This document shows positions 54,454 to 59,420 of a stretch of DNA of 64,000 nucleotides, piece after piece. The DNA comes from Natrinema mahii (GTDB lineage: Archaea > Halobacteriota > Halobacteria > Halobacteriales > Natrialbaceae). The translations under genes were made by a program, and so were the position numbers. Location of the stretch: NCBI GenBank assembly GCA_000690595.2, contig JHUT02000001.1, positions 682,001-746,000 on the forward strand, in the 5' to 3' direction. The notes under the pieces were generated by a model that saw only the letters and a list, made by a program, of their open reading frames with translations, searched no databases and was not told the origin of the DNA. Numbering within the stretch: the stretch's first letter is position 1; every line of letters begins with the position of its first letter.

Positions 54454-54540
54454 GGGTCGGATACCGACCCAGAGACCGGGCCGAGCCAACGAGAGATCGG
54501 GCCGAGCCAACGAGAGATCGGGCCGAACGAACGATAAGAC
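54454..54540 (+). repeat. Dyad and 21-bp tandem repeat inside the origin
   Basis: A 7-bp dyad GGGTCGG-ATA-CCGACCC at 54454-54470 is followed by two exact 21-bp repeats (54478-54498 and 54499-54519, beginning GGGCCGAGCCAACG) and a diverged third (54520-54540). Possibly a binding site or spacing element for initiation proteins. Confidence 0.75.
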
Positions 54541-57907: not shown

Positions 57908-58109
57908 ACGTGGTGTACTATGGGATACCGATTAAAAAATTCCGCGGTTACCAGTCCGCGAGGCTTCCCGAACCGCCGTAGACCCTCGAGAACGGGGCCA
58001 GCGACGCGAATCGCTCGATGCCAACTACCGTGTTCGAAGCGGTGCCGTCACGGGTCGCCGGCCCGCGGCGACGGCACCGTTTTTGCCGTCGGCCCTCGAG
58101 TGTTCGGGT

Positions 58110-58727
58110 ATGGAAGTCGTTCACGTCACCGAGGACGCGGAAGTCTTCACCTGTAACGCATTCCTCGCGATCGGCGAGGACGGGCAGACGACGCTGGTCG
58201 ACGCCGGCGCGTGGGACGGCGTCGTCGACGAAGTCCGGAGCCACACCGACGATGTCGACGCCGTGGTCATGACCCACCAGCACGGTGATCACGTCGAGCG
58301 CCTCGAGGCCGTCGTCGAGGCCTTCGACCCCGCGGTCTACGCCTACGCGGACCATCCGACCAGGACCCACGCCCTCGAGGACGGCGACACCGTTCGAATC
58401 GGCGACGAGGCGTTCGACGTGGTCTACACGCCGGGCCACGCCGACGACCACGTTTCCTTCGTCTCCGAGTCGGCGCTGTTCTCCGGCGACGTGGTCGTCC
58501 ACGACGACGGGGCCTTCGACTACGGCAGCTTCGGCCGGACCGACATGGCTGGCCAGTCCCGCGAACGCCTCATCGAGAGCATCCGTGACCTGCTCGAGCG
58601 CATGCCCGAAGGCGTCGAACACATGTACGCGGGCCACGGCGGCGTCTTCCACGGCGACGTGCGCGACGTGGTCGAGACGGCGCTCGAGCGGGCGGAGAAG
58701 CGCGAGTCGAAGTATCCCGACGAGTAG
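58110..58727 (+). CDS. Metallo-beta-lactamase-fold hydrolase
   Basis: 205 residues. Zn-binding VVMTHQHGDHVERLEA (HxHxDH), VYTPGHADDHVSF, FSGDVVVHDD and YAGHGG are all present, so an active glyoxalase II-like or related hydrolase is expected; substrate unknown. CGTTTTTGCC about 28 nt before ATG 58110 is the promoter. The last 18 codons and some 110 bp beyond the stop are duplicated twice downstream. Confidence 0.9.
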   Translation: MEVVHVTEDAEVFTCNAFLAIGEDGQTTLVDAGAWDGVVDEVRSHTDDVDAVVMTHQHGDHVERLEAVVEAFDPAVYAYADHPTRTHALEDGDTVRIGDEAFDVVYTPGHADDHVSFVSESALFSGDVVVHDDGAFDYGSFGRTDMAGQSRERLIESIRDLLERMPEGVEHMYAGHGGVFHGDVRDVVETALERAEKRESKYPDE

Positions 58728-59066
58728 AGCCGCGAGCGAACGGGCAGCGCCCGTGAGCGAGCGGTCTTTTTTGGTCCAGATTTTTTGCGTGAGTGGTTCG
58801 CGACCGTCGGGAGCGAACCCGAACGGAAAAAAGGTGGGTCGGAGACGGCGCTCGAGCGAGCGGAGAAGCGCGAGCCGAAGTATTCCGACGAGTAGGGCCG
58901 CGAGCGAACGGGCAGCGCCCGTGAGCGAGCGGTCTTTTTGGTCCAGATTTTTGCCGTGAGCGGTCGGCGAAGCCGACCCGAGCGGGAAAAAGGTGGGTGC
59001 GAGACGGCGCTCGAGCGAGCGGAGAAGCGCGAGCCGAAGTGTTCCGACGAGTAGGGCCGCGAGCGC
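58674..59066 (+). repeat. Tandem triplication of the gene's 3' end
   Basis: Copies start at 58674 (inside the hydrolase gene), 58842 and 59001 (partial): periods 168 and 159 bp, both multiples of three. Each carries the C-terminal tail codons (ETALERAEKRE...DE) and TAG, at 58725, 58893 and 59052, all in the same frame with no other stop between. Copies 2 and 3 are nearly identical. The repeats also hold an ACGGGC-AGC-GCCCGT hairpin followed by T-runs, terminator-like. This explains the gene-free 58728-59139. Confidence 0.85.
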
Positions 59067-59139
59067 GGCGCTCCTCGGACGGCGTCGTCACTGAGCGATC
59101 GGAAACGACGGAGAACGGATCGACCGGTCGATCCAGCGG

Positions 59140-59289
59140 TTATGCGGCGCGGGGTTCCTTCGCCTTGGGGCGAAGCTTCTCGTAGCCGCACTTGCGACAG
59201 CGCTGGGCTCGCTTGGAGTTGCGGGCGTTACAGCGCATGCAGATCATCTTCTCGAGCGTCCGTTTCTCGGCGGCGTCGAAACTGGCCAT
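59140..59289 (-). CDS. rpl40e: Ribosomal protein L40e
   Basis: 49 residues: [40 protein letters not shown], basic tail. The CxxC pairs bind zinc as in eukaryotic L40, without the ubiquitin fusion. GGTTAAATG on this strand lies about 22 nt upstream. Its basic charge stands out from the acidic neighbours, as expected. Confidence 0.95.
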
Positions 59290-59420
59290 ACCCCGGCTTC
59301 GCCCGTGGCACATTTAACCGCTGTGATTGGGGTCGCCGGCGGACGACGGCCGGACGGTGAGTTGCCGAGAGCGAGTTGCCGAGACAACATTTAGGACCGG
59401 GCGGCGTGTCGGCTCGAGTG

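Follow-up and report, generated by a model that had tools for sequence, protein, structure and literature searches.

A short non-coding element of two hairpins, here called E, is dispersed behind many genes of haloarchaea, and in most of its copies the end of the upstream gene is found a second time directly after it. We write T for the tail inside the gene and T' for the copy beyond the element. The upstream gene end was duplicated directly after E in 72 of 115 copies, as compared with one of 301 other gene ends without the core, taken from the same loci as control (P = 6e-49). The T-E-T' arrangement occurs at 25 or more gene families, with a start of T' that is fixed for each gene. We consider it probable, with considerable reserve, that T-E-T' cassettes have spread between species by homologous recombination, the tail of the recipient gene being replaced and the native one displaced beyond the element; the transfer, its direction and its agent are inferred from divergence and from a mosaic pattern, and not from a traced event.

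The repeat array in the window

The window, i.e., the whole analysed stretch of 64,000 nucleotides of the Natrinema mahii contig JHUT02000001.1, carries an array of this kind at the end of a gene for a metallo-beta-lactamase-fold (MBL) hydrolase, an orthologue of which is present in 61 of 61 relatives (Table 1). A preliminary description had noted that the tail of this gene recurs twice, with periods of 168 and 159 bp, and this was borne out by the repeat search of the window (units at 58674-58771, 58842-58939 and 59001-59098, spaced by 168 and 159), by TRF (score 612, period 159, 2.4 copies, 89% matches) and by related genomes. The comparison with relatives retrieved two copies of the MBL tail in G004, with the same 168-nt period as the window, and two each in G032, which belongs to another genus, and in G002, with periods of 164 and 149, respectively; the repeat in the window is thus not due to chance. 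The repeat unit had been described as the tail plus about 110 bp of 3' DNA. Three tails are indeed present, but T3 is followed by only ~11 bp of the spacer, and the layout is T-E1-T-E2-T rather than three full units.

Table 1. Features of the MBL gene end and its repeat array, in window coordinates.
Feature	Position	Strand	Basis
Host gene, MBL-fold hydrolase, 205 aa, TAG stop	58110..58727	+	ORF; Pfam PF00753, E 2.3e-12
T1, tail within the gene, 54 nt (18 codons with the stop)	58674..58727	+	Repeat search, sequence comparison
E1, first element copy, left hairpin and core hairpin, 114 bp	58728..58841	+	
E1 core, TTTTTTGGTCCAGATTTTTTGC-hairpin-GGAAAAAAGGTGG, stem pairing the T-tract with the A-tract	58767..58837	+	
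T2, displaced copy of the tail, again ending in TAG	58842..58895	+	
E2, second element copy, 105 bp	58896..59000	+	
E2 core	58935..58996	+	
T3, distal displaced copy of the tail, again ending in TAG	59001..59054	+	
Short left-end remnant of an element, after T3	59055..59066	+	Sequence comparison
Neighbouring gene in convergent orientation, ribosomal protein L40e (context)	59140..59313	-	Pfam PF01020, E 6.4e-08

E1 and E2 differ from each other by 12 mismatches and 9 gap positions over ~114 bp and represent different spacer versions, therefore the array is not the product of a simple recent triplication. E1 is of the type found in G004 (1 mismatch in 114, with 0 of 71 in the core), while E2 is not of the E1 type and corresponds to the element of G026 (3 mismatches in 105 without gaps, 3 of 62 in the core), so that the window array joins two element types. 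The flank behind T3 shows 9 mismatches in 229 with that behind the last tail of G004. The array could be a composite of G004-type and G026-type units, formed by alleles of two lineages that recombined through their tails; alternatively, it might be an older two-element array, from which G004 would have lost E2 and G026 would have lost E1.

The preliminary description had stressed that the triplication preserves the frame, and that serial readthrough of the stops would give proteins with one, two or three tails. Indeed, the frame contains TAGs at 58725, 58893 and 59052 and is otherwise open, as it is through the stops in G004 (open frame of 263 aa). However, the T-to-T' spacing modulo 3 is distributed as 28/22/22 over the 72 loci (P = 0.6), marking the frame preservation as a coincidence, and in G032 and G002 the periods of the same MBL gene are out of frame; serial readthrough is thus not conserved, and we give it hardly any credence. 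The same holds for an artefact of assembly. The genome is a draft of 24 contigs, and short tandem repeats are prone to miscounting, but the same T-E-T' architecture is seen in other, independent genomes, among them single-contig and named complete chromosomes, and the two units of the window differ in sequence.

Two further observations were made in this region. A perfect-looking 21-bp tandem repeat in three copies (93% match) lies at window positions 54471-54534. Furthermore, the MBL protein match is split near residue 170 in the orthologues of the same-genus genomes G005, G008, G011 and G013, which suggests an in-frame insertion of ~15-30 residues.

The dispersed element and the duplicated gene ends

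E measures 50-170 bp and follows the pattern …TTTTTGGTCCAGATTTTTGC–hairpin–GCAAAAAGGTGG. BLAST with E1 against its own genome returned 48 places at E<=10, about 12 of these below 1e-6, and the core pattern was found at 12 sites, as against none for the reversed control pattern; the genome-wide counts for this genome rest on these searches. The earlier suggestion that the repeated unit is an amplified 3' element with hairpins and T-runs thus holds, and the genome search places it behind many genes, in about 12 copies. A contig scan identified 84 E stretches, all of them in records named as genera of the Halobacteria or as haloarchaea, except two in MAGs labelled only Euryarchaeota. Exact cores are present in 51 of 100 relatives, a related stretch occurs on six haloarchaeal plasmids, and no viral contig with the element was found. 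The presence of E among genomes is patchy.

In E1 and E2, the left hairpin is GCCGCGAGCGAACGGGC-AGC-GCCCGTGAGCGAGCGGTC, and the core hairpin pairs a T-tract with an A-tract (CCAGATTTTTTGC...GGAAAAAAGGTGG). The window hairpins have z = -4.9 and -4.7, no shuffle being equally stable. E has near-terminal inverted repeats (CCAGATTTTT/AAAAAGGTGG). Its left and right arms are normally 15-75 bp apart, with the right arm at no more than ~110 bp in 134 of 145 cores and the remainder decayed or truncated. The two basal pairs, scored in 143 cores, are CC/GG in 132, GC/GC in 4, CG/CG in 3, GG/CC in 2 and unpaired in 2. The nine variant cores are all compensatory, corresponding to about four independent changes when gene and clade are considered, and the core hairpin is therefore maintained, through selection or inter-arm copying. 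These structures are based on the arm-to-arm pair count and on single-sequence folds; from 17 cores aligned with MAFFT, RNAalifold derived no structure, the right arms being one column out of alignment. An Rfam search of positions 58000-59400 gave no significant match (best E about 1, outside the element), a scan of the element region for bacterial-type terminators gave 0, and none of the fetched loci contained a longer form that bears a gene between its arms, that is, an autonomous carrier. At locus L080 a variant element adjoins the stop of a convergent gene and has the core TTTTTCATCGAAGTTTTT and the right end AAAAAGTTC, both arms having changed together; further core families probably exist.

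The gene ends were compared by local alignment of the 400 nt upstream with the 250 nt downstream of the core in 119 usable element copies, 67 of which scored above the 99% level of a null built across loci. When a score threshold of 18 was applied and the copy had to start within 12 nt of GGTGG, 72 copies were classed as duplicated and 43 as not duplicated. About 30 clusters of duplicated genes result, a few of which split one gene, hence the figure of 25 or more families. T' adjoins the AAAAAGGTGG end of E and is 20-157 bp long. In the genome of the window itself, the tail is repeated after the element also for purH, where three elements form an array with period 145, and for ileS, argF, an SDR gene and 'g78' (DnaK-like or unassigned).

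Measured from the stop, T' begins at a constant point in each gene across 12 close genomes: -111 in dph, -42 in ileS, -39 or -37 in purH, -45 to -47 in argF, about -41 in sdr, -57 or -27 in vert and -28 in g78. For dph, ileS and MBL the identical start recurs in other genera. Each site therefore arose once or a few times and was then inherited or transferred. The sole clear exception is the g78 locus of G000 (L078), with a start at -89 as compared with -28 in the relatives. As regards the junction after AAAAAGGTGG in duplicated loci, in ~10 of 27 testable families the first 3 nt after GGTGG repeat the 3 nt that precede T in the gene, and 1-2 extra nt (often C or T) come before the copy goes on. 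This exact fit is above chance but does not amount to a general rule. In two places, L115 near 7201 (minus strand) and L185 near 1500, the element precedes a gene, and it is the head of this gene that is duplicated beyond it, the displaced head copy having a different start region; two of the clusters are thus of head rather than tail.

Elements without T' are found in a different setting. The stop of a convergent gene lies at most 7 nt, usually 3, from the right end of E in 23 of the 43 copies without T', as against one of 76 duplicated ones (convergent stops ~3 nt away occur at L036, L038, L092, L116, L118, L121, L131, L157, L165 and others), and E copies lie beside tRNA 3' ends at L098, L105, L108 and L119. 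The right arm always meets either the end of a gene on the opposite strand or a copied tail. Where T' is absent, this arm looks like a terminator for leftward transcripts.

Divergence of the tails and origin of the cassettes

In 102 pairs of T and T', mismatches amount to 3.7/2.9/14.9% at codon positions 1/2/3. The third position holds 246 of 354 differences, with P about 1e-43 against one third, a value that treats sites as independent whereas the loci are not, many of them having a gene family in common. In the same pairs, T' ends with the same stop as T in 55, with another stop in 33 and with none in 14. The codon-position and stop-codon data rule out T' as a decaying pseudogene or neutral copy; either T' recently served as a gene tail or it would be under selection. 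Accordingly, the alternative that the preliminary description had allowed for, a neutral dispersed repeat, stands in one part, similar units following many genes, but not as to neutrality, which is contradicted by the third-position differences, by the stop codons of T' that are kept as stops and by the compensatory changes in the basal stem. A diversity-generating retroelement (VR/TR) was also considered for the tail copy; the differences between T1 and T2 in the window are ordinary transitions.

The in-gene tail is the divergent part of the carrier genes. In the sister pair G006/G026, over six genes, the difference is 2.7% in the body and 10.1% in the in-gene tail (P = 4e-7). The T'-T' divergence, summed over the same six genes, is 13.7%, i.e., not below the T-T value, owing to several T' copies that have decayed or align poorly. 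The dph genes of five carrier pairs (one pair having a single carrier partner) differ by 4.3% in the body and 10.7% in the tail, as compared with 7.6% and 6.1%, respectively, in five element-free pairs. The C-termini of dph in carriers are varied (DATVA, DATVT, DAKLV, DAELS, DAELA, DARLEYSSH), while the T' copies of G026, G006, G002, G018, G028 and G011 end DARLE* or DAQLE*, like the element-free relatives. In particular, the gene ends ...DATVT* in G026 and ...DAELA* in G006, and both T' copies end ...DARLE* and run into a common downstream flank. The left arm of E in dph is, in G026, like those of G000 and G010 and, in G006, like that of G004, in conflict with the relationships of the gene bodies. 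Between G026 and G000, dph T has 7, 1 and 1 differences in its successive 33-nt thirds, a switch of relationship inside T such as a crossover would give. That T' is the tail of the host lineage and T the foreign one thus appears clear for dph in G006 and G026. The tails compared are short (40-111 nt), with most of the weight resting on dph, and none of the comparisons revealed a donor tail that equals the T of a recipient.

Loss of E was observed at dph of G019 (L279), where the gene passes without a break into the flank found behind T' in G024 and G002, and E is gone; what was T' appears now to serve as the tail of the gene. Here the stop is lost, leading to a longer C-terminus, ...SLEVRSGVESR, and the C-terminal change spans 11 residues (ASLEVRSGVESR). 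G016 retains only a remnant of E, part of the left arm, fused to the end of T'. These cases look like removal of E through recombination between T and T' and through a short-homology deletion.

Local tandem duplication, in which slippage or template switching at a terminator hairpin would copy tail and E together, the extra copies then decaying with no transfer, finds support in the arrays of the window, of purH in G000, of vert in G006, G026 and G020 and of the Haloferax loci L112, L126 and L159. Some T' copies are also identical to T, as a recent duplication or conversion would make them, and at L095, L111, L142 and L160 a truncated E comes after the last T', a sign that local tandem duplication also occurs. 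A dead copy, however, should differ evenly by codon position, and here most differences fall on the third; where the stop of T' has changed, it is mostly to another stop. Moreover, it is the in-gene tail of carriers, and not T' alone, that is anomalously diverged, in dph it is T' that retains the native ending with its flank, the new endings being those of T, and the E1 and E2 of the window are of different types. The codon-position and tail-divergence results count against tandem duplication as the whole story, which we regard as rather unlikely. A somewhat lower probability is given to transposition with a long target-site duplication, by which a MITE-like E would insert at gene ends and copy 20-157 bp of target. 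T-E-T' has the shape of an insertion with target duplication, the near-terminal inverted repeats would fit, T ends 0-1 nt from the core at L125, L104 and L163 with unrelated sequence behind T', and in dph T' runs on into the native end. On the other side, the duplicated segment begins at one codon across species and genera, and most copies were therefore inherited or transferred and are not new insertions. We know of no transposase that fits target duplications of 20-157 bp. The repeat length varies over this range, unlike the fixed-length target duplication of MITEs, and neither a gene-bearing longer version in the fetched loci nor a viral contig with the element came to light. Transposition may nevertheless explain how the duplication at each gene was founded.

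Yet another explanation would see T' as functional, an antisense or decoy RNA pairing with the tail of the host mRNA, with E as a bidirectional terminator and selection for pairing keeping T' similar to T. It would agree with the position of E without T' next to convergent stops or tRNA 3' ends, and a conserved T' together with synonymous-only changes in T would give a third-position bias. Against it, no conserved promoter was visible by eye behind T', the stops of T' switch to other stops, T' lengths are widely spread (20 to 157 bp), a crude coding-frame heuristic did not show the neighbouring gene to be consistently convergent, and the new endings of T would be left unaccounted for. We deem it very improbable.

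In the exchange by homologous recombination that we favour, both flanks of E would be homologous to conserved coding sequence, a homology that intergenic DNA would not offer; because of this match, E could enter a new species via any related allele. One crossover would fall in the gene or in T and the other in T' or in E, with the outcome that the gene gains the donor's tail and its native tail is pushed beyond E. Recombination between T and T' would delete E again, and crossovers between arrays would yield arrays with more copies. At the RNA side, E would provide at most a U-tract or hairpin 3' end. Haloarchaea are described in a review as known for homologous recombination between species (PMC4500145). 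Right-hand crossovers inside T' should leave a mismatch gradient along it, but none was seen. The exchange model leaves unexplained the first T' of each gene, the GGTGG-plus-few-nt end and the 1-2 non-matching nt near the E/T' boundary. Tentatively, and with less confidence than for the exchange itself, we propose that E might represent an undescribed class, a non-coding and transposase-free selfish element with coding tail copies as both its homology arms, which the recombination of the cell itself would insert into the same gene of other species, swapping gene tails in the process.

If this is true, a non-coding hairpin could cross species by ordinary homologous recombination with duplicated coding sequence as its ticket, and the C-termini of many core genes (ileS, purH, argF, pheT, the diphthamide-type ATPase and others) would have been repeatedly exchanged at a defined point among haloarchaeal species. 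This would bear on gene trees, on studies of barriers to recombination and on the annotation of gene ends, and the E system could serve as a simple genetic test bed for intergenic sequence that crosses species borders.

Comparison with known systems

No earlier description of E with tail copies was found in a literature search limited to open-licence papers. The closest likeness is with the mORFs of fungal mitochondria, which carry a foreign C-terminus in atp6, atp9, cox2 and nad3 of Glomus and in atp6 of Allomyces, and which share with the cassettes described here the order of gene body with inserted tail, element and displaced native tail. There the native tail is the lineage's own, as seems to hold here for dph in G006 and G026, the inserted tail has diverged mostly synonymously and transfer between species was proposed; the mORFs, however, encode an endonuclease (LAGLIDADG or GIY-YIG) able to drive homing (PMC3630166). 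E has the duplicated tail beyond the element in common with them (72/115 copies, 1/301 control ends), but it is 50-170 bp long, non-coding, found behind many genes and with no nuclease encoded adjacent to it; arms normally 15-75 bp apart hold no homing endonuclease.

E also resembles archaeal aCPSF1 U-tract terminators, as these are described in PMC8716108 and PMC7515710, in setting U-tracts right after stop codons. It is a candidate terminator from its sequence, and a terminator alone would not require a tail copy. Among short non-coding mobile repeats, the MITEs, PATEs and SMRs of Haloquadratum walsbyi likewise have inverted repeats or palindromes; the PATEs and SMRs, however, show no target duplication, the target duplications of the MITEs follow the parent transposon, and no gene-tail duplication is reported there for any of these repeats (PMC3119063). 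REP, BIME and REPIN sequences, associated with RAYT transposases, are small dispersed extragenic palindromes, at times clustered (PMC2817692, PMC3116915). E is a dispersed extragenic palindrome as well. To our knowledge, REPs do not hold a copy of the neighbouring gene's end. Their number is typically >100 per genome (PMC2817692), as compared with about 12 for E. E is akin both to tail-carrying mobile elements and to dispersed palindromes, and may form a separate class of its own.
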